From positions 1 to 37,627 of the forward strand of contig JADZBU010000075.1 in assembly GCA_020851955.1 (NCBI GenBank): a DNA stretch of 37,627 bases. Reading direction: 5' to 3'. Position 1 is the first letter of the stretch. Every line of letters begins with the position of its first letter. Shown piece by piece: positions 6,285-29,089 of this stretch. The notes under the pieces are model-generated. The model saw only the letters and a list, made by a program, of their open reading frames with translations. It was not told the origin of the DNA and did no database searches. The position numbers were made by a program, and so were the translations under genes. Source of the stretch: Chromatiaceae bacterium. Lineage in GTDB: Bacteria; Pseudomonadota; Gammaproteobacteria; Chromatiales; Chromatiaceae.

Positions 6285-6500
6285 CTTGCTTGATCCTGCC
6301 GCCCAGGGCTGATGGTTATGAGGTGGCCGCCGGCGCGCCAGCCGGCGGTCTGCCTGCCTTGCTTGGCCGGCATTATGGCGAGCGCCGCATGGGGGTGAAA
6401 GAGTAGCGGCGAGAGGATATCCGGCGCAACGCCATCCCATCATCGGGGGCGCGTAGAATAAGCGAACTTTCGCCGGCCCGTGGATAAAAACCTCGCCCCC

Positions 6501-7514
6501 ATGAAACGCCTTATCCTCATTTGTTTGTTGGCTTTTTTGGTACTGTCCGCCTGCCAGCAGCCGACCGAAACCCTCCTGACCGGGGACACCCAAGGCACCA
6601 CTTGGCATCTGAAAATGGTCCTGGACGGCACCGCCGCCAACCCGGAGGAGATCGGAACGGCCGTCGCGGCCCTGTTTAGCAGGATTGACGAGCGCTTCTC
6701 CAACTGGCGCGAGGATTCGGAACTGGCCCGCTTCAATCGGCAAGAGACCACGGAGTGGCAAAGCCTCTCGCCGGAGGTCGTCCAGCTCACCCGCCTGGCC
6801 CGCGAGATCCATGACAAGACCGGGGGCTGTTACGACCCGACGGTGCAGCCCCTCTCGGAACTCTGGGGTTTCGCCCGCGAGGAACAGCGGGTGCCCGCTC
6901 CCGGCGAGATCCAGGCCGTCCTCGCCCACATCGGCATGGACAAGCTGGAGATCGACGCCGCCGGGGACCGGCTGCGTAAACGGGACCCAGCGCTACGGCT
7001 CAGCCTGGATTCCATCGCCCAGGGCTATACCATCGGCGCCATGGCCCAACTGCTGGAGGACCGGGGTATTCACAACTACCTCGCCGAGATCGGCGGCGAG
7101 ATGAAGGTCAAGGGCCACAAGGCCAACGGCGGCGCCTGGCGGGTAGCGGTCGAAAAGCCCAAGCCGCTGACCCGGGAAGTGCAACGCATCCTGGAACTCC
7201 AGCGGCAAGACGGCATCGCCGTCATGACCTCGGGGACCTACCGCAACTACTTCGAGGCCGATGGCAAGACCTATTCCCACATCATCGACCCCCGTACGGG
7301 GATGCCCGTCAACCACCAATTGCTTTCGACCACCGTCCTGCACGAGAACCCGACCCTGGCCGACGCCTGGTCCACGGCCCTCCTGTGCGTGGGCGAGACC
7401 GAGGGGTTGCGCATCGCCGCAGCGGAAGGGTTGCGGGCCCTCTTCATCCACCAGGAGGGGGACCAGCTCAAGGAGACTCTGAGCCCGGCCTTCGCCCAGT
7501 ACCTGGGGCCCTGA
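6501..7514 (+). CDS. apbE: FAD:protein FMN transferase, ApbE lipoprotein
   Basis: ApbE attaches FMN covalently to Ser/Thr residues of exported redox proteins such as Nqr/Rnf subunits, using FAD and Mg2+. The 337-residue product starts at the ATG at 6501. An in-frame GTG seven codons upstream is less likely, because the signal sequence MKRLILICLLAFLVLSAC with lipobox LSAC (C18) fits the ATG exactly. Family signatures are present: DSIAQGYTIG, an NYLAEIGGE stretch where typical members have a D-x-G-G loop, HIIDPRTGMPV for FAD/Mg2+ binding, and the C-terminal ADAWSTALL. Length is normal for the family. It is transcribed divergently from the polysaccharide synthase gene and is followed 144 bp later by a P-type ATPase. 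No flavinylation target is seen in the window. Confidence 0.93.
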   Translation: MKRLILICLLAFLVLSACQQPTETLLTGDTQGTTWHLKMVLDGTAANPEEIGTAVAALFSRIDERFSNWREDSELARFNRQETTEWQSLSPEVVQLTRLAREIHDKTGGCYDPTVQPLSELWGFAREEQRVPAPGEIQAVLAHIGMDKLEIDAAGDRLRKRDPALRLSLDSIAQGYTIGAMAQLLEDRGIHNYLAEIGGEMKVKGHKANGGAWRVAVEKPKPLTREVQRILELQRQDGIAVMTSGTYRNYFEADGKTYSHIIDPRTGMPVNHQLLSTTVLHENPTLADAWSTALLCVGETEGLRIAAAEGLRALFIHQEGDQLKETLSPAFAQYLGP

Positions 7515-7569
7515 CGACCCTGTCCACTGGCCGGCGGGCACTCCGCCGCTAGCGCGTCCGGGCCTGGGT

Positions 7570-7584
7570 GCCGGGAACCCCGGC
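7570..7584 (+). terminator. GC-rich hairpin after apbE (weak terminator candidate)
   Basis: A perfect 6-bp stem (GCCGGG/CCCGGC) with a 3-nt loop lies 56 bp after the apbE stop. No T-tract follows, so it may only attenuate or may be incidental in GC-rich DNA. Confidence 0.25.
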
Positions 7585-7658
7585 CGGCAACCGACTATCC
7601 AATTCATGCTATCGGCCCACATCACTTAGTCCAGTCCCGCTCTCCCTGGAGGTCCTCC

Positions 7659-10358
7659 ATGTCGCCCTCACCCCTTTGGCACCAGCACGACGTCGCCACC
7701 AGCATCCAGGAACTCGGCTCCCGCCGGGAGGGCCTGACGGAGGCCGAGGCCCAGGAACGCCTGGCCCGTTTCGGCCCCAATCGCCTCACGCCCCCCCGCA
7801 AGCGCGGACCCCTGATGCGCTTCCTGCTGCAAATCCACAATGTCCTCATCTATGTGCTGCTGGGTGCCGCCGGGGTCACCGCCCTGCTGGGGGAGTGGGT
7901 GGATACGGGCGTCATCCTGGGCGTGGTCCTCATCAACGCCCTGATTGGCTTCATCCAGGAGGGCAAGGCCGAAAAGTCCCTGGACGCCATCCGCAACATG
8001 CTCTCGCTCCAGGCCACCGTCATCCGGGACGGGCACCGGCGGGAGATCGCCGCCGAGGACCTGGTGCCAGGCGAGGTGGTGCTCCTGGCCTCCGGCGACA
8101 AGGTCCCCGCCGACCTGCGCCTGATCGAGACCCGCAACCTGCGCATCGAGGAGGCGGCCCTCACGGGTGAATCGGCGCCGGTGGAGAAATCGCCGGACCC
8201 GGTCGCCGCCGCGGCCCCCATCGGCGACCGGACCTGCATGGCCTACTCCGGCACCCTGGTGGTCTTCGGCCAGGGCCGGGGCCTGGTAGTGGCCACCGCC
8301 GACCACACCGAGATCGGCCGCATCGGCCGCATGCTGGCGGACGTCGAAGGGGTCGTGACCCCCCTCCTCAAGCAGATGGCCGTCTTTGGCCAGTGGTTGA
8401 CGATCGTCATCCTGGCCCTGGCCGGCTTCGCCCTGGCCTTTGGCATGCTGGTCCATGGCCAGGGTGCCGCCGACATGTTCCTCGCCGCCGTCGGCATGGC
8501 CGTCGCCGCCATCCCCGAGGGCCTGCCCGCCATCATGACCATCACCCTGGCCCTGGGGGTGCAACGCATGGCCGCCCGCCGGGCCATCGTGCGCCGCATG
8601 CCCGCCGTGGAAACCCTGGGGGCCGTCACCGTCATCTGTTCCGACAAGACCGGCACTCTGACTAAAAACGAGATGACGGTGGGTCGCCTCATCATCGCCG
8701 GCCAGGTCATCGAGGTACAAGGCACGGGTTACGCGCCCCAGGGTGGCTTCTCGGCCCAGGGTCGGGAACTGGACCTGGAGGAGACGCCGGCACTCCTGGA
8801 ACTGGGCCGCGTCGCCCTACTCTGCAACGATGCCCGCCTGCGGGAGACCGGGGGCGACTGGACCCTGGAGGGTGATCCCACCGAGGGGGCCCTCCTGACC
8901 CTGGGCCACAAGCTGGGTCTGGACCCCCATTTCGAGGCCGAGGCCCTGCCCCGCCGCGACGTCATCCCCTTCGAATCCCAGCATCGCTTCATGGCCACCC
9001 TGCACCACGACCACGCCGGCCACGCCTTTGCCTTCATCAAGGGCGCCCCGGAAGAGGTGCTCCTGCGGTGCGCCCACCAGCGCCAAGCCGGCACGGACCA
9101 GCCGCTCGATCTCTCCTGGTGGCAGGGCCAGATGGAGACCCTGGCCCAGGCCGGCCAGCGGGTCCTGGCCCTGGCCCTAGCCCCCATGCCCCCCGGCAAG
9201 ACGGACCTGGATTTCGCCGACCTGGAAGGCGGTCTCACCCTGCTGGGCCTGGCGGGCATCATGGACCCGCCCCGCGAGGAGGCCATCCGCGCCGTGGCCC
9301 ACTGCCAGGCCGCCGGCATCCGGGTCAAGATGATCACCGGCGACCATGGCGTCACCGCCCAGGCCATTGGCGCCAGCATGGGCATTGGCAACGGCCGGGC
9401 CCTCACCGGGGCCGAGGTGGAAGCCCTGGACGACGAGGCCCTGCGGCAAGCGGCGGCGGAGACGGATGTCTTCGCCCGCGCCAGTCCCGAACACAAGTTG
9501 AGGCTGGTCCAGGCCCTCCAGGCCAATGGCGAGGTGGTGGCCATGACCGGCGACGGGGTCAACGATGCCCCGGCCCTGAAACGGGCGGACGTGGGCGTGG
9601 CCATGGGTCACAAGGGCACGGAGGCGGCCAAGGAGGCAGCGGCCGTGGTCCTGGCCGACGACAACTTCGCCACCATCGCCGCCGCCGTGGAGGAGGGCCG
9701 CACCGTTTACGACAACCTGCGCAAGGCCGTCATCTACGTGCTGCCCGTCAGCGCCGGCCAGGCCGCCATGGTGCTGGTGGCCGTGCTCCTGGGTTCCACC
9801 CTGCCCATCACCCCGGTGCAGATCCTCTGGGTCAACATGGTCACCGCCGTCACCCTCTCCTTGGCCTTCGCCCTGGAGAAGCCCGAGGCCAACATCATGC
9901 GGCGCCCACCCCGTGACCCCGCCACGCCCCTGGTGGACGGCTTCATGCTCTGGCGCATCCTCTTCGTCACCCTTCTGATGGCCCTGGCCTCCTTTGGGCT
10001 CTTTCTCTGGGAGACGGCGCGGGGCGCCGATGTGCTCACGGCGCGGACCGTGGCGGTCAATGCCCTGGTGGTGGCGGAGATGTTCTACCTCTTCAACTGC
10101 CGCCGCCTGCATGATTCCATCCTCAACCGCGAGGGTTTCCTGGGCAACCGCCTGGCCCTCCAGGCCATCGCCTTCCTGCTGCTGCTGCAACTGGGCTACA
10201 CCTACCTGCCCCTGATGCAGACTCTCTTCCACACCGCCCCCATCGACCTGGCCGCCTGGCTGCGCATCCTGGTGGTCGGCGTCCTCCTGCTCCTGATCGT
10301 GGAGGGGGAAAAGGCCCTGATCAGCCATTACCAGCGGCGGGGGACGCGGGGTCGCTGA
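7659..10358 (+). CDS. Type II (PacL/Pma1-like) cation-transporting P-type ATPase
   Basis: This 899-residue ATP-driven cation pump of the inner membrane has a clear ribosome binding site, GGAGG at 7648-7652. All P-type signatures are present: TGES in the actuator domain (169-172), PEGLP in M4 (286-290), the phosphorylation site DKTGTLT (D329), a KGAPE nucleotide-binding motif, and TGDGVNDAP in the P domain (from 630). About ten hydrophobic spans with a cation-ATPase C-terminal domain make it type II. The residues that in SERCA-type pumps bind Ca2+ are not kept. M5 has S698 and Q701 where SERCA has Asn and Glu, and M6 reads WVNMVTAV with A730 instead of Asp. Calcium is therefore not a safe substrate call, and the group resembles cyanobacterial Pma1-type pumps. 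It is followed 12 bp later by an anion permease, so the two are probably co-transcribed. Confidence 0.93.
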   Translation: MSPSPLWHQHDVATSIQELGSRREGLTEAEAQERLARFGPNRLTPPRKRGPLMRFLLQIHNVLIYVLLGAAGVTALLGEWVDTGVILGVVLINALIGFIQEGKAEKSLDAIRNMLSLQATVIRDGHRREIAAEDLVPGEVVLLASGDKVPADLRLIETRNLRIEEAALTGESAPVEKSPDPVAAAAPIGDRTCMAYSGTLVVFGQGRGLVVATADHTEIGRIGRMLADVEGVVTPLLKQMAVFGQWLTIVILALAGFALAFGMLVHGQGAADMFLAAVGMAVAAIPEGLPAIMTITLALGVQRMAARRAIVRRMPAVETLGAVTVICSDKTGTLTKNEMTVGRLIIAGQVIEVQGTGYAPQGGFSAQGRELDLEETPALLELGRVALLCNDARLRETGGDWTLEGDPTEGALLTLGHKLGLDPHFEAEALPRRDVIPFESQHRFMATLHHDHAGHAFAFIKGAPEEVLLRCAHQRQAGTDQPLDLSWWQGQMETLAQAGQRVLALALAPMPPGKTDLDFADLEGGLTLLGLAGIMDPPREEAIRAVAHCQAAGIRVKMITGDHGVTAQAIGASMGIGNGRALTGAEVEALDDEALRQAAAETDVFARASPEHKLRLVQALQANGEVVAMTGDGVNDAPALKRADVGVAMGHKGTEAAKEAAAVVLADDNFATIAAAVEEGRTVYDNLRKAVIYVLPVSAGQAAMVLVAVLLGSTLPITPVQILWVNMVTAVTLSLAFALEKPEANIMRRPPRDPATPLVDGFMLWRILFVTLLMALASFGLFLWETARGADVLTARTVAVNALVVAEMFYLFNCRRLHDSILNREGFLGNRLALQAIAFLLLLQLGYTYLPLMQTLFHTAPIDLAAWLRILVVGVLLLLIVEGEKALISHYQRRGTRGR

Positions 10359-10370
10359 AGTCACGCCCCC

Positions 10371-11597
10371 ATGAACGCGGCCGTCCCGGTCATTTTCGTC
10401 ATCGTCTATCTGGGCATGATTCTGGGCGGCCTGCCCTTTCTGCAACTGGACCGCACCGGCGTGGCCCTGCTGGGCGCCATCGCCCTGGTAGGCGTCGGGG
10501 CGGTCAGTATCGAGGCGGCGGTGCAAGCCCTGCACCTGCCGACCCTGATCCTGCTCTTCGCCTTTATGGTGGTGTCGGCGCAACTGCGGCTGGGGGGCTT
10601 CTACGCCTGGGTCACTCTCAAGCTGGGGTTGCTACCCCTGCGGCCCCCGCTCCTGCTGGTGGCCCTGGTGGCCCTGGTCGGGGCCCTTTCGGCGGTGTTC
10701 AGCAATGATGTCGTCTGTCTGGCGGTGGCGCCGGTCCTGATCGACGCCTGTCGGCGGCGAGGGCTGGATCCGATCCCTTTCCTGCTGGGGCTGGCTTGCG
10801 CCGCCAATGTCGGCTCGGCCGCGACCCTCATCGGCAACCCCCAGAACATGCTGATCGGCGCCACCCTGGGGCTCTCCTTCGGCGGCTATACCGCCCAGGT
10901 GCTGGCGCCCGTGCTGCTGGGCCTGGTGGCGACCTGGGCCATCATCGCCTGGCAAGCGCGGGGGCACTGGGCCCTGCTCGTTGATGGCAAGGGGGAGGCC
11001 CGGGGGCGGCGGCCCCCCGAGGCCCCGACCTTCAACCGCTGGCAAACCGCCAAGGGCTTGCTGGTGGCCGGGGCCCTGCTGGGGGTCTTCCTCTTCACCT
11101 CCTGGCCGCGCGAGGCGGCGGCCCTGGTGGGGGCCGGGGTCATGCTCACCAGCCGCCGACTGCATTCCCGCCAGATGCTCGGGCTGGTGGACTGGGAATT
11201 ACTGGTGCTCTTCATGGGCCTCTTCGTGGTCAACCATGCGCTGCAGGATAGCGGCCTGGTGGCCGAGGCGGTGCGGGCGCTGGCGGCGGGAGGCGTACCG
11301 CTCGCGGAGCCCGGACCCTTGTTCGCGGCTGCGGTCCTGCTCAGTAATCTGGTCTCGAACGTGCCGGCGGTGATGCTGCTGTTACCCGTGGCGACCGATC
11401 CCCTGGCGGGGCCCATCCTGGCCCTGGCCAGCACCCTGGCCGGGAATCTGCTGCTGGTGGGCAGTATCGCCAACCTGATCGTGGCGGATGCGGCCGGGCG
11501 GCGCCATCTGGTGCTCGACTGGCGCACCCATGCCCGCGCCGGGGTGCCGGTCACCCTGGCGACCCTGGCCATCGCCGCCGCCTTCCTGCATCGCTAA
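10371..11597 (+). CDS. ArsB/NhaD/SLC13-superfamily anion permease
   Basis: This is a 408-residue, highly hydrophobic protein with about 10-12 predicted spans. It has the two-halved ion-transporter layout: a first half with SNDVVCLAVAPVL and LIGNPQNMLIG, and a second half with LSNLVSNVPAVMLLLP and GSIANLIV. The Ser-Asn-Asp/Asn-x-Pro and Gly-Asn-Pro-type hairpins are the substrate and sodium binding elements known from this superfamily (citrate, dicarboxylate, arsenite, Na+/H+). The substrate cannot be decided from sequence. It starts 12 bp after the P-type ATPase stop with no separate promoter visible, so the pair may couple cation and anion movement (inference). Its TAA stop overlaps the stop codon of the convergent DUF1703 gene. 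Confidence 0.85.
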   Translation: MNAAVPVIFVIVYLGMILGGLPFLQLDRTGVALLGAIALVGVGAVSIEAAVQALHLPTLILLFAFMVVSAQLRLGGFYAWVTLKLGLLPLRPPLLLVALVALVGALSAVFSNDVVCLAVAPVLIDACRRRGLDPIPFLLGLACAANVGSAATLIGNPQNMLIGATLGLSFGGYTAQVLAPVLLGLVATWAIIAWQARGHWALLVDGKGEARGRRPPEAPTFNRWQTAKGLLVAGALLGVFLFTSWPREAAALVGAGVMLTSRRLHSRQMLGLVDWELLVLFMGLFVVNHALQDSGLVAEAVRALAAGGVPLAEPGPLFAAAVLLSNLVSNVPAVMLLLPVATDPLAGPILALASTLAGNLLLVGSIANLIVADAAGRRHLVLDWRTHARAGVPVTLATLAIAAAFLHR

Positions 11598-13141
11598 CCC
11601 CAAGTCTCCACCTCGAACCCTACCACCGTGCGCCGCTCGCGGCTGAATTCGACGCCGATGAGATGCAAGGGACAGCCCTCGGCACGGTACTTGTCCGCGT
11701 AGCCGCGCTCCTTGATCTGGCGCAGGGCACGACCTTCGGCCTCCCCCGCCACGACCTTGAATTCAAACAGGTAGATTTGGTGGTTGAAGCGGACCGCCAT
11801 GTCCAGCCGTCCGGCGTTGCTGCTCTCCTCGGGAACTATCACGAGACCAAGGGAGGCGAAATAGGCATAGAAGACGCTGGCGTAATAGCCTTCGTAGCGG
11901 GCGATGGGGTTTTTGCGGTACCAGTCCGCGGGGATGCCGGCGAAAAAGGCGGAAAACAGCCGCTCGAGTCCGGTGAAGTCGTTGGCCAGGAGCAGGTCGT
12001 AGAGCCGACCGACATGCTCCATCGTGGCATCGGAACGAGCGGCAAGCTGCTCCAACAGCGCCCCGTTCAAGCCGGCGCGGACCTCCTGGTTCGGGTAGCG
12101 GAGTCGATATTGGATCACGGGGCCGAGCTGGCGGACCGAGTCGATGGTCAGATAGCCGGTCTGGAACAAGAGGGCCTCGGTGGCAATCCGATCCACGTCA
12201 AAGGCGGAAAGCAGTTGCTCGCTGGCTAGCAGATGCTCCAGGCGAGGGACAAAGACCTGGCGCTCAAGCAAGAGGTCCACGAGAAAGGTCGGAGTGGCCG
12301 TCTCGAACCACCAGGGGCGGAATTGGCGCTTTTCGAACAGCAGCAGCACATCAAAGGGATTGTAAACCGCCTCTCCCGTCCAGTTGTAGCCGTTGTACCA
12401 GTCGCGGATCTGGTCCCGATCGAGTCCTGGAAGTTCCGGGGCGAACACCCCATTCAAGTCAGTCTCGGTGTAGCCGCACAGTGCCGAGTACTTGGCATCG
12501 ACGCTGATATCATTAAGATTGTTCAGTCCAGAAAAAAGACTGACCTTGCTGAATTTCGAGACGCCGGTCAGAAAGGCGAACCGCAAATGCGGGTCCGCGC
12601 CCTTGATGACTGAATACAGATTGCGCAAGCCATCGCGCATGGCCCGCGCGATCTCGGGCGCGGTCAGGTTGTCCAGGATGGGTTTGTCGTACTCATCGAC
12701 CAGGACGACCGCGCCCTCACCATACTTGGCCTGGGCCGCGCGAATCAGGCCGAGGAAGCGGCCCGCCACGCTCCGGTGCGGGCTTTGGACCCCGAGGTTT
12801 GCCTCGTTATCGGCGAGGATCTCGCCGATCCGCTGATCGAGTTCGGCCCGGCTGTGCATCACCCCCTCGGCGAAGCTCAGACGAATCACCGGATGACGCC
12901 GGCCCCAGTCCCAGCGCGAATGCGCCCAGAGCCCCCGAAACAGCGGTTCATTGCCCGCAAACAGCTCGCCCAAGGTATCCAGGAACAGGGACTTGCCGAA
13001 CCGGCGCGGACGCGACAGGAAGAAATATTTGCCTTGCTCGATCAAGTCCAGGGCGTAACCCGTCTTGTCAACGTAATAACAGTCACGCTCGCGGATTTCG
13101 CGGAAGGTCTGGATACCGATGGGTAGGATCTTGCGTGTCAT
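11594..13141 (-). CDS. AAA-ATPase-like / PD-(D/E)XK nuclease-like protein (DUF1703 type)
   Basis: This is a 515-residue protein. The start at 13141 (MTRKILPIG) is preceded by GGAG at a 7-nt spacing. The N-terminus is the typical AAA-ATPase-like fold of this family: YYVDKTG, then the P-loop-like RPRRFGKS (44-51) and a Walker B-like VVLVDEYDKPILD. The C-terminus carries a PD-(D/E)XK-type nuclease signature, RLDMAVRF followed by FEFK (E460, K462). The family is abundant in Bacteroidetes and in Chromatiales-like genomes. Its function is not established, although a nuclease or mobile-element role is often proposed. It lies 87 bp downstream of the druE-like gene on the same strand, so it could be read from the same transcript, but nothing shows that it belongs to that defence system. 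The stop codon overlaps the stop of the convergent permease gene. Confidence 0.88.
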   Translation of the reverse strand: MTRKILPIGIQTFREIRERDCYYVDKTGYALDLIEQGKYFFLSRPRRFGKSLFLDTLGELFAGNEPLFRGLWAHSRWDWGRRHPVIRLSFAEGVMHSRAELDQRIGEILADNEANLGVQSPHRSVAGRFLGLIRAAQAKYGEGAVVLVDEYDKPILDNLTAPEIARAMRDGLRNLYSVIKGADPHLRFAFLTGVSKFSKVSLFSGLNNLNDISVDAKYSALCGYTETDLNGVFAPELPGLDRDQIRDWYNGYNWTGEAVYNPFDVLLLFEKRQFRPWWFETATPTFLVDLLLERQVFVPRLEHLLASEQLLSAFDVDRIATEALLFQTGYLTIDSVRQLGPVIQYRLRYPNQEVRAGLNGALLEQLAARSDATMEHVGRLYDLLLANDFTGLERLFSAFFAGIPADWYRKNPIARYEGYYASVFYAYFASLGLVIVPEESSNAGRLDMAVRFNHQIYLFEFKVVAGEAEGRALRQIKERGYADKYRAEGCPLHLIGVEFSRERRTVVGFEVETWG

Positions 13142-13228
13142 GGGACTGCTCCGGGGCTTTGTCCAAGGGAGAGACTCCAACCCACCGCACCGCTCCAGTC
13201 GAAACCAAAGTTAACGGTGATCGCTCCG

Positions 13229-16200
13229 TCATGACTCCACCCGGTAACAGAAGAGCTTGGTAGGCTTGGCGGAGTCGAGAAGGAAGTCGATACCGCCGGT
13301 GAGGTCATAGCGATATTCGACCTCGCACCCGTTTTGGTCGATCAGGGCGATGTCGATGGTCCGGTCATGGAAGTCGCGGCTCTTATGGAATTCGTGGACC
13401 AGTGACAACAGGTTGCTGCCGGCGAAAACCGTTCGCAGGGCATTGGTTAACTCGCGCGCAACGACATGTCGGGGTCGATAGTTCGGGTCCTTGTTGCGCA
13501 GTTCGCGGCCGTGGACCACCAACCGCTCCACCTTGGCTGCACTGGCGACGAGGAAACTCACCAACTCGACTAGCGCCGCCGTCTGGCTGGCACCGGCACC
13601 GCAGTAGGGATCTTTGATGGTGATGCTGGAGACCATCTGTCCCGCGATCGGCGCGAACCAGAGTGCGGGCGTGCGCGGGGCGCCGGCCTTGAACTCCCAA
13701 CGCTCCACTGGCAGAGAGGGGCGGAAGGCATCCGCAGCCACGGGGTGGGCCGCAGCCAGCAAGCCCCGCAGCATCTCGCTAACCGTGCCATCCAGGGTTC
13801 CGCGATAAATCGGAGGGGGCAGGATTTCCTGTAACAGGGGTTGGGTCGGCAGGAGCGAGAACCAGGCGCGCGCGCCCTCGTCGACCCCAGCCGCAACCCG
13901 CGGCAGTTGGATCAGATCTACCGGGTCCAGATCCTGGAGTTGGTCAATACGCAGCCGCGCGTCTTCCAGATAAGGCGAGAGATACCGCAATGCCTGGCGC
14001 TGGGCGACGGTGGCCGCCTTGATCCCGATGACAGGACTAACCAGCAGATGCAGGTGAAGCTTCAGCCCAGCGTTGAGAAGGTCCAAGAGCCAGTGCAACG
14101 GGAGTTGTTCCTCCCCGGCCTCGCCCACCAGACGCAGTGCGAGCAGATGGAATTGCGGCAACGCCTTTAGTGCGCGGCCAAGCTGCTCCAGGCTGGGGTC
14201 CTGCCAACGCGTAAGTCCAAGCCCGGGATAGATGTCCTCGGAGACCTCATCGCGGAGCACAGCGAGCCAAGCCTGGACCGGCTTGCGGTTGAGCTGGTCC
14301 CAATAGGTCTGATTGGAGTAGTCGCAGAGACAGGCGGTACAGGCGGTGGCACAGTCCGCCTCGCAGTTGAGGCGACCCACGGCGTCCGCCAGCAACGCCT
14401 TCACCGAAACGCTTTCTGCCAGGCGTACGCAGTATCCCGCGCCCCCGGCGACAGCGTCGTAGAGTACGATTTCAAGGGTGCGTGCGCGCAGCCTGAAGGT
14501 GGCGCGCAGCTCGCTTGTCTGGATCTCCAGTCGCGCCGCGGCGGTGAAGCGCAGGGCCTCGGCCAGGGTCCGGGCGAAGCATTCCGCCCATTGGCGCGGG
14601 TTGGCCTCGGCCCGATCCGGCGGCGGCACCGGGGCGGCGAAGCGCCAGAGCACCACGTCCGTGGCGAACTCGTGGGCAAGGTCCTGGGTATAGAGCGGCC
14701 CACTGTTTACGCACGTCTTGTCGCTCAGCAGGTCTTTGTGAACGATCTTGTTTGGTCCCGGCTTTTTAGCCGCAGTGGCGAAATTGCAGCGCGGACAGAC
14801 GTGGTACCCCTGGCCATAAGTTCCGCGATTGACAATGAACATCCGTCCATCGCTCTGTCCGTCTTCCGCCGGCCGCGCTCGCAGAAGGGTGACGCGGACC
14901 CGTGGGTGATCTGTGTCGCGGTAGTGATCATCCCGCGGGAGAGTGATCAAGCGCGCCTCGTCCGCGGGCCGCTCCCGCCTACGGTTAGTACCGGGGTCCT
15001 TACCGTTGCGATCGGAGTAACTGGTAACGAAACCGCGGGGACGCAGATAGGCCCGGCGCAGCCTACCAGCGCTAGCGCCACAATGGCTACAGGCCGGCGG
15101 CAGGTCGTCGCGGTCTAACCCAGTGTCGACATGGTGGCATTCGGGACAGGCGGCATACCATTCCCGCGGCATGAAGGTGCGGGGGTAGTAAGCAAGCCCT
15201 GCACTGGTCCAGATGCGACCGTTGGCGACGACCTCCGCGCCTGGGGCATACTCGCTGATGCCCAACATGGCGTCGCGGGAGAGCGAGACGTCGCCCTCCT
15301 TGCCCCAAAGTCCCTGCTGACCGAAGTTACGGGTCACCTCCAGGGTCAGGCTGTGCACCGGGAAGCTGTAGGTCGGGATCAGACTGCGCTGTGAGAACTG
15401 GTCTACCAGGAACTGCTGCATGTAACGCTCGCGCATCCGCATCCAATGCAGTTGTTTGGCTAAGCCGGCAGCGTCGGCAGATCCGGCGGCAGCCTCTTTC
15501 ACCTTGTCCTCATAGCGCTGCCACCGCCCGTGGACCTCCCCGGCGAAGGCGGCTATCTGCTCACGCACATGCCCCACCAAGGCAGGGCCGCGTAGTGCAA
15601 TGGCATCGGCGACCTGAGGCGGGAGGCGCTCGGCAAGACCTTCGGCCTCAGCAATGGCCTGGGCGCCACTTGGTTCTGACAGCCACCGGTCCAGCCAGTC
15701 GGTGGATCCTTGCAGGGCCATCGCATCGAATTGATCGCCGAATAGATCCGCCAGGCTTGGGGCGTTGACGGCCAGGTTGGTAATTCGCTGACGCAGCAAG
15801 TGCGAGAGCATCACCCCGACCTGATGGCGCTGAAACAACTGGGCGTTGTCGAGCAGCAGGAAGGGCACCGGTGCCGTCCCCCCCAGATACTCTCGAAAGC
15901 ACCGGTACATAGCTTGATCGTACTGGGCATTGCGCGCGACCGTGACGCAGAAGGGCGCCGCCTGGGCGCGCCGTCCCGCGCGGCCCGTGCGTTGCTGGTA
16001 GTTGGCGATGCCTGGCGGGATGTTGAGGTTGGCTACCGCTTCCAGGTCGCCTAGGTCGACGCCCATCTCCATCGTCGTGGTACAGCTCAAAAGATTAATC
16101 CCGCCACGGGCAAAGTCCCGTTCCACCTGCTCGCGCAGGTCGGTGGAGAGTGAGGCGGTGTGCTCGTGGGCACGGGCGGTCATGGCCCGACCTTCCCGGT

Positions 16201-19123
16201 AGAGATGAATGTAGTGGTTCTCATCCACCATGCCGCGGCGCTCGGCATCATCCAATCGACGGACTGTGCCAGTGCAGCCGAAGGCGGTGCAGCAGTCAGC
16301 CACCACGTCAGTCTGCAACAGGCCGCAGGTCGCGCAAACGAAGAGCGGGAACCCGGCGGCGTCTTCAAAGCGAAGTGCTTTCCCGTCCAAGCCGAAGCCC
16401 GGTTGATGGCGCACCGCGAGCCGCGTCGCCTGGAGGACATCCCAGACCACCGCAAGGAAGTCCCGGGCCTCAACCTGCGACCAACCGAGTCGCTTCATCA
16501 GGTAGGCAGTCCGGCGGTTGTGCCGCTGGGTACCCTCAGGGGGTAGCCAGGCATGACTGGCGTCGCTGCCCGAGTGGAGTGCGAACGAACGGTGCCCCGC
16601 ATAGGATGCGCCCCATACATATTCAGAGCGCAGGTCCACATCCCAGAGATTAACGATAGCCTTTTCCCGGCGCATGGTCTCCAACAGAAAGCGTAAGAGC
16701 GCCTCTGCCTGGGTCCGGTGGCGCTCCGGAATCTGCTGGGAGCAGTCCCGCAGCAGCTTGCGGAAGGCGCTTTTTTCCCAGGACACCCGCACCAAGCCGA
16801 GGGCCTCCAGTGAATTACGCCGGCCCCCCGGGGTACAGAATTCGGCCGCAATCCGCCCCATCAGCGGATCGCGCATCTTGCGTTTGTCGCTCTGGACCTC
16901 GCCATTCTCATCGATCAGCACCGGCTGTCCGCGCCTCTTCCAAGCCTTGAATACCTCCTCGAATAAGAGTTCCAAATCGAGTGGTTCATCCTCGCCCTGG
17001 AGTGCGTGATAGATGGCACTGCGCAACGCCAACTCGCCCGCCGTGCGCTCGAAATAGGGGGCAAAAAAGGCAGCGTTCTGGCGGTTATCTGAGAAGGTGA
17101 GGAGCGTTCGGCCGTCCATTGGCCGCGGTTCACCGAAGGGGTCAGGACGAGCCGGCAAAGCCTCCAGGACCTGTTGCACCACGACCGAGGACAGGGCCTC
17201 GTTACCGGGGTGCATCCGCGTGACAACCTCGGCTTCAGCCCCCGAGCTGCGCCCGCCGCAAGCCGGGCAGCGGGTGACATAACGGGCGCGATCCTGTTCG
17301 TCTTCCTTGGTGTCGATCTCATAGAGGGTGACGCCAGTCGCCCCACCGGTAGGCGGCAGCCCGGTGTGCGGATCGATGATGCGATGCTTGAACTGACTCT
17401 GGGGCGCGGCGATCGCGTCGGCGTCCAGATCCTCCTCATCGGCGGTCATGACATCCGGCGGTTTACCCAACCAGAAGATGTGACGCTTGACTTGGCCCTC
17501 GTCCACCAAGGGGCGGCGGTTGTGCAGACGCCCATGGTGGTCGAAACCCTCCAGGTAGGGCTGACCACACTTACGGCACACCAGGAGCGGAAAATATTGG
17601 CCGGTGTCGTCCGCATAGACGCGCAATGGCTTGAGAATGCGCCAGCCTTCCGGTGCATCGCCATTCAGTGCGACCGAGACCCCTTCGATGCCACTCACCG
17701 CCAGGTGATAGCGGGCCGGGAGTAAGGGGAAGGCGTCCTCGTGGGCACGCGCCAGCATCCCCAGATGGATGACCGCGCTCAGAGCAACGGTGCGGTCATC
17801 GGCGTCGCCATCGGCAGCGCCGCCGAACACCCGCTCCGCCACTTCGGCAAAGGCCAGCACTCCGCCGGCGGAGAGGATGGCAGAGGTCGCCCGAATCTCA
17901 CGGTTGTGGCTGAACACCGCCTCCAATGCAGGCCCGAGCCGCTGCTGGTCGGCCGGGAGGCCGGGCATCCGGTCTGCGATTGCCTGATCCGCAAGCGCCT
18001 CGTGCCAATGGACGGGCCCCGGTTCCGGCTCGGCAGTGACGGACTCCAATACCCGGCCAATGGCGCACCAGGTCGTAAGGTCGAGGCTGAACTCTTCGGG
18101 ACTAGGCCGGGTGAGTCCGTAGTGCGGGATGCGTCGGCCCCGGATGATCTGGTCAACCGGCTCGCCGAACAGGTTCTTGGCGAAGGTGAGGATCTGGCGA
18201 TTGTTGTCCTCGCCCTCCGGCAGGCTAGCGCTGGTCCCAAAGACCTGGAGCCGACACGTCAGTCCCAACCGATTCTTGAGCTTGCGCAACAGATAGGCCA
18301 CCTCGGTGGCCTGGGCCCCCGTGTAGGTGTGGATCTCGTCCAGGATCAAGCACTCCAGGCTATCATGGGCGAACAGGGGTGCATTGCGGGGCAAGAGCAG
18401 CAGATGCTCCAGCATGGCGTAATTGGTGATGAGGATGCGCGGTGGGTTGGCGAGCATTTCCTCGCGGGTTAGACGCCAATGATCCGGGATGCGTCCGCCC
18501 AAGGCGGACATCAGCTTGTCGTTCTCCCGCAGCCGGGACTCTTCTTCATCACGCCGTGTCTTAGCGCGGATCTGGGAGGTGAAGCGTCCGAAGCTGATAC
18601 GCGCCGACGCCAGTTGTCGGCCAAACAAGGGGGCGATGCGGTAGTAAAGCTGATCATTGGCCAGGGCGTTCATCGGATAGATCAGCAGACCTCGCACCCC
18701 CGGACGGTCGGGTTGTGGGTCATCCAGCAAACGATGGGCCAGCGGGTAGAGGAAGGTCTCGGTCTTGCCCGATCCGGTGCCGGTGGCGGCCAACAGACTC
18801 TCTTGGCGCTCGCAGGCGGCACGTAGCGCCTGCTCCTGGTGCAGGTGCAGGGGGCGATCCAGGATGTGGGCCGGCAAATCGGCTAATCCGTCGTGCAGGA
18901 AGCCGCCCTGGGCACGTAACAGGGTACGCAGGGATGCACCCTTCTCGAAGTCCGGTAGGGCCTCCAGGTAAGGCCCCTTCACCAACTCCTTTTGTTCGAC
19001 CAGATCGCGAAAGGCCTGGCGCAACTCTGGATAGCGCCGGCTGATGGGCAGGGTGGTCGGGATATATCGTCGCAGAGTGTCGCGCAGGCTGCGGTACAGG
19101 ACCAGGGGGTTGCGCTCAGACAT
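13229..19123 (-). CDS. druE: Druantia DruE-like helicase with DUF1998 region
   Basis: This 1964-residue superfamily 2 helicase starts at the ATG at 19123, which has GAGGAG about 8 nt upstream and overlaps the end of the preceding gene by 8 bp. Helicase motifs are the Walker A GTGSGKT (115-121), the DEIH box (262-265), GTSASL, and TTMEMGVDLGDL with QRTGRAGR (1044-1051). The two helicase lobes are separated by a long region with Cys pairs (CRKCG, CPACGG, CATCG and CCTAFGC). After the second lobe come CPECHH...CSHCG and a DUF1998-type cysteine cluster (C..CATACTACLCDY, near 1585-1600). The last roughly 140 residues contain KDPY (1837-1840) and FHDR (H1919-R1921) and look like a MIT_C/phospholipase-D-like domain. 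Size, motifs and the partner gene fit DruE, the hallmark protein of Druantia anti-phage systems. DISARM DrmA/DrmB-type helicases are the main alternative, but their partners are absent. Confidence 0.78.
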   Translation of the reverse strand: MSERNPLVLYRSLRDTLRRYIPTTLPISRRYPELRQAFRDLVEQKELVKGPYLEALPDFEKGASLRTLLRAQGGFLHDGLADLPAHILDRPLHLHQEQALRAACERQESLLAATGTGSGKTETFLYPLAHRLLDDPQPDRPGVRGLLIYPMNALANDQLYYRIAPLFGRQLASARISFGRFTSQIRAKTRRDEEESRLRENDKLMSALGGRIPDHWRLTREEMLANPPRILITNYAMLEHLLLLPRNAPLFAHDSLECLILDEIHTYTGAQATEVAYLLRKLKNRLGLTCRLQVFGTSASLPEGEDNNRQILTFAKNLFGEPVDQIIRGRRIPHYGLTRPSPEEFSLDLTTWCAIGRVLESVTAEPEPGPVHWHEALADQAIADRMPGLPADQQRLGPALEAVFSHNREIRATSAILSAGGVLAFAEVAERVFGGAADGDADDRTVALSAVIHLGMLARAHEDAFPLLPARYHLAVSGIEGVSVALNGDAPEGWRILKPLRVYADDTGQYFPLLVCRKCGQPYLEGFDHHGRLHNRRPLVDEGQVKRHIFWLGKPPDVMTADEEDLDADAIAAPQSQFKHRIIDPHTGLPPTGGATGVTLYEIDTKEDEQDRARYVTRCPACGGRSSGAEAEVVTRMHPGNEALSSVVVQQVLEALPARPDPFGEPRPMDGRTLLTFSDNRQNAAFFAPYFERTAGELALRSAIYHALQGEDEPLDLELLFEEVFKAWKRRGQPVLIDENGEVQSDKRKMRDPLMGRIAAEFCTPGGRRNSLEALGLVRVSWEKSAFRKLLRDCSQQIPERHRTQAEALLRFLLETMRREKAIVNLWDVDLRSEYVWGASYAGHRSFALHSGSDASHAWLPPEGTQRHNRRTAYLMKRLGWSQVEARDFLAVVWDVLQATRLAVRHQPGFGLDGKALRFEDAAGFPLFVCATCGLLQTDVVADCCTAFGCTGTVRRLDDAERRGMVDENHYIHLYREGRAMTARAHEHTASLSTDLREQVERDFARGGINLLSCTTTMEMGVDLGDLEAVANLNIPPGIANYQQRTGRAGRRAQAAPFCVTVARNAQYDQAMYRCFREYLGGTAPVPFLLLDNAQLFQRHQVGVMLSHLLRQRITNLAVNAPSLADLFGDQFDAMALQGSTDWLDRWLSEPSGAQAIAEAEGLAERLPPQVADAIALRGPALVGHVREQIAAFAGEVHGRWQRYEDKVKEAAAGSADAAGLAKQLHWMRMRERYMQQFLVDQFSQRSLIPTYSFPVHSLTLEVTRNFGQQGLWGKEGDVSLSRDAMLGISEYAPGAEVVANGRIWTSAGLAYYPRTFMPREWYAACPECHHVDTGLDRDDLPPACSHCGASAGRLRRAYLRPRGFVTSYSDRNGKDPGTNRRRERPADEARLITLPRDDHYRDTDHPRVRVTLLRARPAEDGQSDGRMFIVNRGTYGQGYHVCPRCNFATAAKKPGPNKIVHKDLLSDKTCVNSGPLYTQDLAHEFATDVVLWRFAAPVPPPDRAEANPRQWAECFARTLAEALRFTAAARLEIQTSELRATFRLRARTLEIVLYDAVAGGAGYCVRLAESVSVKALLADAVGRLNCEADCATACTACLCDYSNQTYWDQLNRKPVQAWLAVLRDEVSEDIYPGLGLTRWQDPSLEQLGRALKALPQFHLLALRLVGEAGEEQLPLHWLLDLLNAGLKLHLHLLVSPVIGIKAATVAQRQALRYLSPYLEDARLRIDQLQDLDPVDLIQLPRVAAGVDEGARAWFSLLPTQPLLQEILPPPIYRGTLDGTVSEMLRGLLAAAHPVAADAFRPSLPVERWEFKAGAPRTPALWFAPIAGQMVSSITIKDPYCGAGASQTAALVELVSFLVASAAKVERLVVHGRELRNKDPNYRPRHVVARELTNALRTVFAGSNLLSLVHEFHKSRDFHDRTIDIALIDQNGCEVEYRYDLTGGIDFLLDSAKPTKLFCYRVES

Positions 19124-22100
19124 CGACAGACTCCTCATCCGCAGCGTCCGCATCGGCGGCGAACACCAGTTCCCAGAGCATCAGATAAAACTCAAAGACA
19201 TCCCGGCCGACATAGAGTAGGTAGCCAACGGCCTGGGTTTGGGCCTGGACATCGAAGTCGGAGAGCAGCCCTTGGCGCAAGGTTTGTTGCCAGGCACTCA
19301 AGGGGCCGGCGCCCCGGGCCTCCCAGCGGCAGACGGACGCAAACAGGCAGAGCGTCCTGTCGATCAACAACAGATTCTCCTGCTCTTGGTCCCAGCCACC
19401 GGCAGGCATCGTGATCATCAGCCCCAGCCCGTCAGCATCGTGCAGGTGGGCCGGAATGCCTGGGGCGAAGCTCGCCAGCGGTCGGCTCCGGAATGCGCGT
19501 ACCAGACGCATAGCCCAACCGCGGCGCGCCTCGTTTCCGGCCAGGGTGGCACGGTAGCGTTGCTGCAGCGTGCCAAGGGCATAGCGCCAATGTACTGGCC
19601 CCAGGTAATCGCCCTCGGTCGGACGCCAGTCTTCACGACTTAGCCGGGACCAGGCGTCGTCAATGTTGCGGGCAAAAAGAGCTGCCCGGTAGCGCTTGAG
19701 CGAGAATCCGCACGGCGGCGTGCCCTTCTGCATCCGCATGACATTGTGAAACCCAATCGCCAGGGTCTGTTCAATATGTTGCTGGAGGAACAGTTGGCAG
19801 AGCGGGGCGCGGAGCCGACACAGTTCACCGAGCAGGCCGCCGCGCCCACCAATGGCGTGATAGGCCACGGATTCGCGTGCGTAGCACCAAGGTATGGCCG
19901 CGCCGATAGAGAGTAGGGGAAACCAGCTCACCTGGGCAGTCAGTGGCGGACCGAGCGCATCCAGGGCGACCAATTCTGTCAGGGTCTGCCCGCTGACCGG
20001 CTCAAGCCGCCGAGCCAGCCTACGCCAGATGGCCTCAAGCCACATGATGCCGTGCCAGGCGTCAGGGGCGTAACAGGCTAAGAGGGCTTTGTGGACACGC
20101 TTGAAGACCGTGATCAATTTCGCTAGGTCGAGTGCGTCGGTCTGGCCCAGTAACCAGTGCTGGGTTACAGAGTTCCCAGCGTCGTTGATTAGGGCACCCC
20201 AGGCGTATATATCTTCCCGTTCGTTGACCAGGGCGCCCCAGCGACCATGGAGTCTTACTTCCACCCGGAGCAGCCAAGCCCCCCCCGACCAGCGCTCCAA
20301 GGGGAATTCAAGGCAATGGGGAAATTGGCCCGTTTCCCTGCGCTCGCCGCAGGATAGCCAGCCGAGGGTCGAGCGATCCAGGTGCGCGGCGGCCTCGTTG
20401 CAAAGTAAATCCAGTTCCAAGGTCCGCCCTGTCAGCAGGTCTTGGGCCGAGCAACGCATCGCTTCTGCGGCGGTCGGAAGGTTCAGCCTAACCCGCAACA
20501 AACCGCCCTTGGTGTCCGTCGTCATACCGAGAACCTGATGGGGCGTCACCAACTCCATGAGGGGCTCCGGTGTACCCCCCGGTAACTGGAACCAGAGTCT
20601 GTTCTGGCCCGGTTCCAGGTATTCCGCCAGCGATGACAGATGCAACCGCCGCATCCCGGGGCCGGACGGAACCTCCTTCCGCCATCGCCCCAGCGTCAGG
20701 GTTCCGCCTTGGCTGGAGTAAATATCCAGAACCTCCATGGAGTTGCCACGTACGGCCAGCACTGCGCCCTTACGTACGGGCGTCTCCTCCACCTGCCCTT
20801 CGTGAAAACGCTTCAGGATCATGAAGGCGCCAGGCACCGCCCCGGCGAACTGGACGCTGCGGCCGGACACCAGCACGAAGGCGAACCTGAAGAATCGCTT
20901 GGCATCGCTGCGGTAGCTGATTTCCTGGCGGGTCTCATCAACCGCCAGGTTGTCGCACCGGTCAGGGTCCAGGTTGGACGGCAGCACCGCGCAGCGAAAT
21001 CGCACCCGGTCATCGATGCCCTGCAGTCCAAACCACAGATAGGCAGCCAAACGCGCCATGGGGCGGCGAATCTCTGTCCGCCGCAGTTCGACGCCGAGGC
21101 GGGTCAGACCCGGCCTAAATCCTTGGGTGACTCCTTCCAGGTCCACCTCGAAACGGCCATCGGCACCCGGTGTTACCGGGATCTCCAACTCCGAATCTAC
21201 GCCCGGCCCAGTAAGAACAAGGCGGAGCCCGCCCGACGGTTCAGTCAGCAACTCGTGCGGCACCTGTCCGCGCAAACCCAGGCCAGCCGAGGCATAGAAC
21301 TCGTTGCCGCCGACCCCCCGGAAGGATGCGCCATAGAAAGCTAGCGTCGGGCGGCCGCGGGCCGTCAGGAGGGCCTCGGCAGGACCGCGGCGTAGCGCCA
21401 GCGTTTCGCCAGGTGCCAGATCCGCCGCTAGCCAGTACAGGGTTGGGTCTGGACTGATCTCGGTGACCTCCCCCGGGTACTCATCCGGACGGAAGCGAGT
21501 CACCAGCGTAACCATCCCCGGGTCGATCAACAGGGTTTCTTCAGCGTTGAGACGCCCGCTAGCGCATAACAGCCCAGCAGAGTCGAAGGCGAGAAAGCGA
21601 TTGTTGCGCCCGTCATCCCAAAGGGAAAACGCCTTGCTCAGGGCGCCGTCCCTGCGTGAGACCTTGGCGCTACCCGGTAATGGCGGGCAATCAAACGGGA
21701 TGAATCGCGTATCTGTCGCGCCCCTGTAATGGTGGATCTGACCGTCGACATCGACGACCCAGGGGGTGCCATCGCCAGGGGGCAACTCGATACCCAGCCA
21801 GTCGTCGCGCCAGACGACCTTGGGAATGGACAGACCCTGCGGATGAATCGGCCCATGGCCGGCGATGGCTTCCGCCATCGCGGCGGCGATAGTCGAATCG
21901 GTCCCTGAGGGTTTGGAGTCGGCCTCCTTCAGGAGGCGCAGAAAGAGCCGCACATAGAATCCGTTGATGTCGCCGTGGACGGCCCTCTGCACGGTCAGAG
22001 GGACTGGCGGGCCGAGTCGCTCCGCCATGGCACCCTGCCATAGCACGACCCCATCCGGGTCGTCCGACTCGGGGACCCCGGCGAGAGCGGCATATTTCAG

Positions 22101-22583
22101 CATCCGCTTGGCAAGGTCCGGCACGAACAGCATCGGCACTCCTGCCTGGTGCAGATATTCGGCCACCATATATGCGGTGGTCGAGTGGGCAGGGACCACA
22201 TCCAACCCAAGCCGAATACAGGCGCGACGGTAAGCCCGCCAAAGTTTGTCCCGTTGCGCCTGCGTCAACTCGCGAGCATCTCCGAACAGGGCGGCGGTGA
22301 CGTAGGGATAGACGGCGGCATTACCTTCAGCGCCATATCCCTCAACCACATGCGCCGTCAGGTGAGAGGCAAAGACCGCGGGCCAGCGCTGCAATGCGTT
22401 CAGAAATCCTTGAAAAGGGTCGCGCAAGCCGGCAAGGGTGTTGCGCAAACGAACCCGCACGGTCTGGGTGAAAAGATCGGCGTAGAGCCCAAGGAAAGGC
22501 TTATCGCCGATATCGAGCTGTTGCCTGAGCGCCTGCTCCGTGTGCAAGAGCCAGATCTCGTTCGCAGATGAGAAAATGGGCAT
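19116..22583 (-). CDS. druH: Druantia type III DruH-like protein of unknown activity
   Basis: This 1155-residue protein has AAGGA eight nt before the ATG at 22583. I recognise no catalytic motif, signal peptide or membrane segment. The sequence is a mix of alpha-helical N- and C-terminal parts and a central beta-rich stretch (about 280-780) with many WVVDVDG- or LRLVLTGPG-like strands. It ends with an acidic tail (FAADADAADEESVDV). It is the first gene of a unit in which the last 8 bp overlap the DruE-like helicase, so the two are translationally coupled. A large protein of this length directly upstream of druE is the layout described for Druantia type III (druH, druE). The name rests on size, order and partner, not on residue-level recognition. 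Base composition is slightly lower in GC than the flanking metabolic genes, which fits an acquired defence cassette. Confidence 0.68.
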   Translation of the reverse strand: MPIFSSANEIWLLHTEQALRQQLDIGDKPFLGLYADLFTQTVRVRLRNTLAGLRDPFQGFLNALQRWPAVFASHLTAHVVEGYGAEGNAAVYPYVTAALFGDARELTQAQRDKLWRAYRRACIRLGLDVVPAHSTTAYMVAEYLHQAGVPMLFVPDLAKRMLKYAALAGVPESDDPDGVVLWQGAMAERLGPPVPLTVQRAVHGDINGFYVRLFLRLLKEADSKPSGTDSTIAAAMAEAIAGHGPIHPQGLSIPKVVWRDDWLGIELPPGDGTPWVVDVDGQIHHYRGATDTRFIPFDCPPLPGSAKVSRRDGALSKAFSLWDDGRNNRFLAFDSAGLLCASGRLNAEETLLIDPGMVTLVTRFRPDEYPGEVTEISPDPTLYWLAADLAPGETLALRRGPAEALLTARGRPTLAFYGASFRGVGGNEFYASAGLGLRGQVPHELLTEPSGGLRLVLTGPGVDSELEIPVTPGADGRFEVDLEGVTQGFRPGLTRLGVELRRTEIRRPMARLAAYLWFGLQGIDDRVRFRCAVLPSNLDPDRCDNLAVDETRQEISYRSDAKRFFRFAFVLVSGRSVQFAGAVPGAFMILKRFHEGQVEETPVRKGAVLAVRGNSMEVLDIYSSQGGTLTLGRWRKEVPSGPGMRRLHLSSLAEYLEPGQNRLWFQLPGGTPEPLMELVTPHQVLGMTTDTKGGLLRVRLNLPTAAEAMRCSAQDLLTGRTLELDLLCNEAAAHLDRSTLGWLSCGERRETGQFPHCLEFPLERWSGGAWLLRVEVRLHGRWGALVNEREDIYAWGALINDAGNSVTQHWLLGQTDALDLAKLITVFKRVHKALLACYAPDAWHGIMWLEAIWRRLARRLEPVSGQTLTELVALDALGPPLTAQVSWFPLLSIGAAIPWCYARESVAYHAIGGRGGLLGELCRLRAPLCQLFLQQHIEQTLAIGFHNVMRMQKGTPPCGFSLKRYRAALFARNIDDAWSRLSREDWRPTEGDYLGPVHWRYALGTLQQRYRATLAGNEARRGWAMRLVRAFRSRPLASFAPGIPAHLHDADGLGLMITMPAGGWDQEQENLLLIDRTLCLFASVCRWEARGAGPLSAWQQTLRQGLLSDFDVQAQTQAVGYLLYVGRDVFEFYLMLWELVFAADADAADEESVDV

Positions 22584-22656
22584 ATCGCTATTCCTTCGCT
22601 CGATCCGTCGCAGTCATTTGGTGCGGACTAGGTTCTTTGGAGACAAATGCAAGGGT

Positions 22657-27804: not shown

Positions 27805-28062
27805 CTAGCGGCATGGTTTGGGGGTGAGACAGGTGGCGCTCAGGACAGGCAGCCAATGCCGTTTGCCGCCGATGCGTACCCCGGTCTCGTCGGCATGGGC
27901 AACCTCCAGCGTCGCACCCGGATGCTGCTTATGCCCCCCGGGCTGCTGGCCACGGTTCGTCCGCAGGGATTTGGGGGGCGGTTTCTTGAAGGGGGGATCA
28001 GAGGACGGTGGTTTGCTGGAGTTGTGGCTATCCTTGGCCAAGCGCGCTTCCAGTTCAGATAA
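27805..28062 (-). pseudogene. IS66-family transposase remnant, internally deleted
   Basis: The frame reads LSELEARLAKDSHNSSKPP followed by SSDPPFKKPPPKSLR and a GGHKQHPGATL segment, the typical N-terminal linker of the IS66 TnpC transposase. It then jumps directly to VAHADETGVRIGGKRHW, which in intact proteins lies far downstream in the catalytic core and contains its first DDE aspartate. The intervening part (of the order of 150-200 residues) is missing, and the frame ends soon after at 27805. The piece cannot encode an active transposase. Its 5' part overlaps the last codons and stop of the PIN gene, so the element edge lies at that gene's 3' end. No terminal inverted repeats or other IS66 genes are seen. 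Confidence 0.82.
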
Positions 28063-28624
28063 GGTCGATATGATCCTCCAACAATGCAGCGACGCCCGTC
28101 AGACCTTGGCGGCGCAGACAGGCGACGAAAGCATCGGGCGTTAGCGGTGGATTGTGAAGCGAGGCACGCTGCTGTTTGGCCGCGACGATCAAGACGCCCG
28201 GTTCCAGGTCCGCCAGATCAAGCACAAAGTCGTCTGGATGGCGTGCGAAGATATCGAAGTCCCCAAGCGCGGCCTGGGGAAAGTCCTTCAGGTTAAGGGT
28301 TACGATGCACTGGGCACCGGCACGGATGGCCGCTGCCAGAACATGTCGATCGTCGGGGTCCGGCAGGTCCAGATCGTCGATCAGAGATTCGTAGCCCGTC
28401 ACGAGGCAGTCCGGTACCGCCCGGTCAATCAATTGGGCCGTCCGCGCGATGCTCTGCGGGTCCAGTTCAGAGCGCTGTCTCAGCAATGCGCCGATCCACT
28501 CCTGTCGAATGCGCTCGGTCCAGCGGGCACGAAACCGTCTGGTCTGGGCTAGACGGATCATCAGGTCCCGTAGCGGTGCCGGATAGAACAGGCATGCATC
28601 GTAGACGACCGTGAAGTTGGCCAT
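28055..28624 (-). CDS. PIN-domain toxin-like ribonuclease
   Basis: This 189-residue PIN protein (PIN_3/COG1569 type) is probably a metal-dependent ribonuclease toxin. The acidic residues expected for a PIN active site are visible: D9 in VVYDACLFYP, E42 in RQEWIG, D91/D92 in DPDDRHVLAAA, and the NLKDF motif with D114. Its ATG follows the stop of the HTH gene with no gap (TAGATG), the usual antitoxin-toxin order. The last codons and the TGA overlap the IS66 remnant, so the C-terminus may have been altered by that insertion, although the PIN core is intact. A VapBC-like function is inferred from family and gene pairing. Confidence 0.82.
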   Translation of the reverse strand: MANFTVVYDACLFYPAPLRDLMIRLAQTRRFRARWTERIRQEWIGALLRQRSELDPQSIARTAQLIDRAVPDCLVTGYESLIDDLDLPDPDDRHVLAAAIRAGAQCIVTLNLKDFPQAALGDFDIFARHPDDFVLDLADLEPGVLIVAAKQQRASLHNPPLTPDAFVACLRRQGLTGVAALLEDHIDLI

Positions 28625-29083: not shown

Positions 29084-29089
29084 AGCCAC

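Follow-up and report, generated by a model that had tools for sequence, protein, structure and literature searches.

A divergent Druantia type III-like gene pair with a remote DruH-like partner and a predicted tandem PLD-fold helicase tail in a Chromatiaceae bacterium

The Druantia type III-A system of Escherichia coli couples DruH (YjiT), whose trigger is a baseplate component, to the helicase DruE. The published DruH has helical N- and C-terminal regions and Ig-like domains at residues 257-464, 465-631 and 632-748, and was reported to be less conserved than DruE (PMC13192584). The DruHE system of Mycolicibacterium smegmatis provides phage defence via abortive infection and is activated by a phage tail protein, the trigger of the mycobacterial DruH being a minor tail protein (PMC13316683). 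Bell et al. described two PLD-like domains in type III DruE, the last of which is predicted to be active, and a III-B branch that mostly lacks a nuclease (PMC12458937). Here, we analysed a gene pair of this kind from a Chromatiaceae bacterium (GenBank assembly GCA_020851955.1), located on contig JADZBU010000075.1 within the 37,627-nucleotide stretch of DNA that was examined as a whole and is called the window below. The pair very probably represents a divergent Druantia type III system combining a DruH-like sensor with a helicase-nuclease effector, for which we infer an antiphage activity.

The pair consists of two intact open reading frames (ORFs) on the minus strand, to which all features of the pair given below belong. 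The first, the druH-like gene (19116-22583), begins with an ATG and encodes 1155 residues; its pairing and profile-profile homology mark the product as a putative infection sensor. The second, druE (13229-19123), begins with the ATG at 19123 and was assigned from PADLOC, Pfam, phmmer and tree evidence as a 1964-residue YprA-family helicase with predicted tandem PLD-fold domains at its C-terminus. The two proteins and their 8-bp overlap, already listed in the initial annotation of this DNA, were confirmed, the stop of the druH-like gene and the start of druE sharing ATGTCTGA (19116-19123). Each gene is equipped with a good ribosome-binding site: the Shine-Dalgarno-like AAGGAA precedes the druH-like start (22591-22596), and GAGGAG (19131-19136) lies 7 nt 5' of the druE ATG. 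An alternative in-frame ATG at 19153, 30 bp upstream, would yield a protein of 1974 residues, longer by 10; most druE homologues start at the position equivalent to the 1964-residue start. The overlap suggests translational coupling and makes co-transcription of both genes very likely. The shared promoter that had been proposed for the pair was not recovered, as a consensus scan of the minus strand upstream of the druH-like gene found no sigma-70-type promoter.

Homologous pairs were identified in 12 further loci, mostly proteobacterial, and the relatives were found only through helicase searches. As the partner homologue stands directly before the helicase homologue in these 12 loci, the layout is far beyond chance. 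The window family spans Gamma-, Beta- and Deltaproteobacteria, with partners of about 1150 residues. The closest named relative is the purple sulfur bacterium Thiorhodococcus minor (L003), with 76% identity for the helicase and 57% for the partner. In every window-clade locus with enough upstream sequence, a partner homologue was located directly before DruE. One locus (L014, 3986-9520) is rearranged and carries a BrxHII/DpdE-like helicase, followed by a remnant (the last ~85 residues) of a DruH-like protein and by a broken window-type DruE. The source genome (G000) is fragmented into 475 contigs and 89% complete.

By score and by tree, the 1964-residue protein was identified as DruE. Seven PADLOC DruE models matched it with 547-304 bits (DruE1 547, DruE3 524, DruE2 379 and DruE4 330 bits), as compared to 85 bits for DpdJ and 40 bits for DrmA. 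The profile check suggested in the initial annotation thus returned DruE, with lower scores for the DISARM and Dpd models. Pfam detected the DEAD, Helicase_C and MZB domains, the latter (DUF1998/MZB, MrfA Zn-binding; 14327-14566, PF09369, E 7.4e-10) corresponding to the DUF1998-type zinc region that had been noted in the helicase. The protein therefore shows the features that define a Druantia helicase, i.e., a large YprA-family SF2 helicase with DUF1998/MZB and its best score to DruE models. It carries all the SF2 motifs and seven CxxC motifs. Twelve clade helicases, including that of the window, were examined for the key motifs: Walker A (TGSGKT, residues 116-121, 18761-18778) was found in all 12, as were a DEIH-type Walker B (DEIH, residues 262-265, 18329-18340) and a QRTGRAGR-type motif VI (QRTGRAGR, residues 1044-1051, 15971-15994), and each helicase contained seven or eight CxxC motifs. 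The nearest solved structure by sequence was a helicase of 2108 residues, 9tu7 (phmmer, E 7.6e-66), which is the E. coli DruE of PMC13192584 as judged by its length, entry series (DruH = 9tud) and description.

The trees were built on the helicase core with FastTree (SH-like support) and IQ-TREE with ultrafast bootstrap (UFBoot). The window clade, the E. coli-type III-A clade and the separation of all Druantia from ARMADA-type YprA helicases each received a UFBoot value of 100. The window DruE clade fell within Druantia but belonged neither to the E. coli-type clade nor to the main III-B clade. The III-B relatives (L016-L081, mainly from Actinobacteriota, Chloroflexota and Bacillota) were assigned to III-B by description; they appeared as the sister group of the window clade, a placement that UFBoot (67) and SH-like (0.90) values supported weakly. 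A Verrucomicrobiales sequence (L017) joined the window clade with a UFBoot value of 100.

The 1155-residue partner matched no PADLOC DruH model (E up to 1) and no Pfam or NCBIfam family, and the window-type partner of a second locus (L002) gave no PADLOC DruH match either. The E. coli YjiT/DruH, used as a positive control, matched 12 PADLOC DruH3 models (best 1828 bits), whereas the type III-like DruE partners of Mycolicibacterium, Mycobacterium, Herbiconiux, Nocardia and a Clostridiales genome gave no DruH match. Because the same profiles miss the Actinobacterial type III-like partners yet detect the E. coli DruH, we attribute the failure to the reach of the profiles rather than to non-membership. 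The absence of a DruH hit had been named beforehand as refuting a Druantia type III-like identity; the miss did occur, but such a test is too weak, since those Actinobacterial partners would fail it as well. In PADLOC, type III is defined by a DruH model match beside DruE, which the window pair lacks. Single-sequence searches with the partner detected no relatives in pattern searches of genome contigs, in plasmids (tblastn) or, beyond the window's own matches, in 274 genomes of the class. The partner family profile gave no match in viral contigs and, among 398 genomes of the phylum, matched only its own genome.

Profile-profile comparison with hhalign linked the window partner family to the III-B partners (prob 98.5, E 2.5e-15, 797 colinear columns) and the III-B partners to the E. 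coli-type DruH family (prob 97.8, E 9.7e-13, 826 colinear columns). The links were reproduced when the III-B set was randomly halved and when subsets of the window family were used (E 4e-9 to 3e-15), and neither reversed profiles nor the helicase profile gave a match. Through this two-step chain, and by transitivity only, the partner is assigned to the DruH superfamily. The AlphaFold2 model of the partner (mean pLDDT 83) comprised an N-terminal alpha-helical region (residues 6-241, 21861-22568), a beta-sandwich, Ig/FN3-like middle (residues 255-800, 20184-21821) and a C-terminal alpha-helical region (residues 808-1153, 19125-20162). This predicted helical, beta-sandwich, helical architecture equals that of the published DruH. 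Across 55 pairs, the mean identity was 29% for the partner versus 49% for the helicase, and it was lower for the partner in all 55, as expected for a sensor. In the L007 locus (5348-9967), the DruH-like protein has 1539 residues, and its N-terminal extension contains two repeats (E 1e-9 and 3e-6) that resemble the YjiT/DruH N-terminus of the E. coli type.

The last 342 residues of DruE were modelled as two PLD-fold domains (AlphaFold2, pLDDT 85). The first, PLDi-like domain (13727-14224) is devoid of an HDR motif and matched PLD-fold proteins at Z 7-9 in a fold search, including the PLD-fold domain of FAM83B at Z 8.8. The second, PLDa-like domain (13232-13717) resembled the PLD-like domain of MITD1 (Z 14.6, root-mean-square deviation 2.5, 138 aligned) and contains the FHDR motif (residues 1918-1921, 13361-13372), a candidate nuclease active-site motif. 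Ten of the 12 clade members retain the (F/M)HDR motif, and the other two have lost it. A weak, colinear profile match to the E. coli-type DruE tail aligned HDR with HxR (E 2e-4). The tandem C-terminal PLD fold, a III-A feature, is thus present in the model of the window DruE, and its nuclease activity is predicted. The III-B helicases studied here end after DUF1998 (median 1620 residues), and none of 67 matched the PLD tail. A Druantia III-like operon on a Nostoc linckia plasmid (L139, 4179-14375) contains an extra gene of 307 residues between a III-B-like partner of 967 residues and a DruE that keeps a PLD-type tail with YRDRYL and HGR motifs.

Several observations weigh against the assignment of the pair to Druantia type III. 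The top single PADLOC model was DruE1 and not DruE3, if by a small margin, the tail match to the E. coli-type DruE was weak (prob 45), and an arginine replaces the catalytic lysine of the canonical HKD in the tail motif. The direct hhalign comparison of the window partner family with the E. coli DruH failed (prob 0.2), and PDB sequence searches with window-family, III-B partner and mixed profiles did not reach the solved DruH, 9tud. The connection of the partner to DruH consequently hangs on an intermediate family, for which a DruH function is itself a prediction. A PDB fold search with the partner model returned only generic Ig/FN3 matches (Z ≤8.1) and not 9tud, the library ending on 2026-04-08, before the DruH paper. 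Finally, we know of no phage experiment for any member of the window clade. The failed direct comparison, the lack of any PADLOC, Pfam or NCBIfam match and the varied partners with which YprA helicases occur (PMC12458937) would agree with a distinct defence system, in which a Druantia-type helicase independently recruited an unrelated partner and the two-gene layout is convergent. We consider this improbable, given the significant colinear chain of about 800 columns through the III-B partners with clean controls, as well as the gene order, size and overlap, which are the same as in Druantia III, and the matching predicted architecture.

The YprA/MrfA helicases function in DNA repair in Bacillus, which would agree with a reading of the pair as a housekeeping repair module of a MrfA/YprA-like helicase and an accessory protein. 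This reading appears very unlikely, as the helicase sits inside Druantia in the tree, the partner is fast-evolving and the pair is rare and patchy, the 274 class and 398 phylum genomes containing only the window's own matches. Moreover, its relatives are spread over three proteobacterial groups near defence genes, and at least five of the 12 other loci adjoin such genes: BREX (L003, L015), type I restriction-modification together with Qat (L006), a GajA-like/Nsn-type ATPase (L013) and ARMADA-like genes (L007). Least probable of all, and already largely refuted, is descent from another YprA-helicase class (ARMADA, DISARM or Dpd) after the loss of its other genes; the weak DpdJ and DrmA matches to the helicase core and the two ARMADA-like operons in the same genome are outweighed by DruE scores more than six-fold higher, by the fully supported split from ARMADA-type helicases, by the scan of the window genes, which detected neither a methyltransferase nor an SNF2/BrxHII helicase, and by a PLD-type tail where a Vsr nuclease is described for ARMADA. 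DISARM, Dpd and ARMADA were all rejected on scores, tree and missing genes, and DISARM in particular on the DrmA score and because there is no DrmA/DrmB split, the DUF1998 part being fused to the helicase in one ORF.

The reading of the pair as a divergent Druantia type III system agrees in substance with the initial annotation. By analogy with the E. coli and M. smegmatis studies (PMC13192584, PMC13316683), on which the proposed phage sensing, DNA substrate, nuclease activity and sequence of events are modelled, the fast-evolving DruH-like sensor would most likely bind a phage protein, either structural or late, or an infection-specific complex and thereby license DruE. The helicase might then load onto phage DNA, replicating or processed, at single-stranded 3' tails, using the SF2/YprA core and the zinc-rich canopy. 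It would unwind the DNA and nick or degrade it with the C-terminal PLD-fold nuclease, and phage replication would stop as the outcome. A more specific proposal, which we regard as tentative and rather doubtful, is that the window clade forms a separate Druantia III subtype, combining a III-B-like helicase core with the III-A tandem PLD tail and a sensor so diverged that its trigger class differs. If so, this combination would imply that type III ancestrally possessed the nuclease tail and that most III-B members have lost it.

The lineage is a divergent branch of a known kind of system and does not constitute a novel form of immunity. The mechanism paper (PMC13192584) drew on a 2026 census of Druantia III that required a PADLOC DruH match below 1e-10, so a window-like system would be left out of it. 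Helicases of this sort were probably counted by Bell et al. in their Druantia III-like branch, as occasional PLD tails are mentioned for it (PMC12458937). Through the window family and the connection of this family to the III-B partners, DruH extends past the reach of current profiles, and the clade informs the timing of the gain or loss of the DruE nuclease tail. In addition, the clade lends itself to a natural swap test of the idea that phage specificity resides in DruH, with DruE acting as a common effector.

The flanks of the window encode mainly metabolic and transport functions, including a P-type ATPase, a CitMHS/ArsB-type transporter and a four-gene oxidoreductase operon. An accessory region had been proposed around the pair; some of its elements were found, but the view of a typical accessory island was not supported. 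A DUF1703-type gene (AAA-ATPase_like + PDDEXK_9; 11594-13180; G+C of 61% versus 64-70% around it) lies downstream of druE, and a PIN-domain and HTH_17 gene pair (28055-29089), likely a toxin-antitoxin module, is present. The latter is, however, located 5.5 kb from the Druantia pair, beyond the oxidoreductase operon, and the other neighbours on either side have metabolic or transport functions. The DUF1703-type gene was also considered as a third operon component and rejected, as no homologue was found among the ORFs of the relatives' loci. An ORF of 446 residues (33174-34514) with CBM96, collagen-like repeats and a C1q domain is unusual for a bacterium. On other contigs, the source genome contains two further operons with full or partial ARMADA type II gene content, a type for which co-occurrence with Druantia III has been reported in E. 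coli (PMC12458937). One, on C135 (L146, 1-14760), has a SNF2/BrxHII-like helicase, a PglX/Eco57I-type methyltransferase and a YprA helicase, and the other, on C366 (L147, 2484-18928), has a methyltransferase, a YprA helicase and a GajB-like UvrD helicase. A Methylococcaceae member of the window clade (L007, 16094-23910) shows an apparent ARMADA-Druantia III neighbourhood: immediately downstream lie another YprA helicase and a GajB-like protein that shares 43% identity with its C366 counterpart. On an E. coli IncY plasmid (L104, NZ_CP127005.1), Druantia III adjoins Zorya II.

When compared with the known systems, ARMADA type II (PMC12458937) shares the YprA-family helicase with the window but needs ArmA (SNF2/BrxHII-like helicase), ArmB (PglX-like methyltransferase) and ArmD, and has a Vsr-type tail; none of these was found among the scanned genes of the window. 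The M. smegmatis DruHE (MSMEG_1253-1254, PMC13316683) has overlapping genes, as in the window, a DruH of 1132 residues and a DruE with DEAD, Helicase_C and DUF1998; this DruE, with 1667 residues and no nuclease domain listed, differs from that of the window and was placed with III-B by description only. The III-B systems (Bell et al. 2025, PMC12458937) resemble the window in having two genes, with a partner of ~1100-1400 residues directly upstream and often a short overlap, related partner families (E 2.5e-15) and the nearest helicase core in the tree, at the weak support given above. In contrast, their helicase cores are only 25-34% identical to that of the window and the helicases examined stop after DUF1998, whereas the window DruE retains ~340 residues modelled as two PLD folds. 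The E. coli III-A system (PDB 9tud, 9tu7-9tuc; PMC13192584) likewise consists of two genes in the same order and of similar lengths, with a helical, Ig-like, helical sensor and a DruE composed of DEAD, Helicase_C, MZB and a tandem PLD tail. Its DruE core is about 24-32% identical to that of the window, the two fall into separate clades with 100% support, the window lying outside the III-A clade, and the partner is undetectable by sequence or direct profile comparison. Consistent with the operon structure of Druantia III, the DruH-like gene is followed by druE in the window and its relatives, and the additional genes that characterise types I and II are missing.

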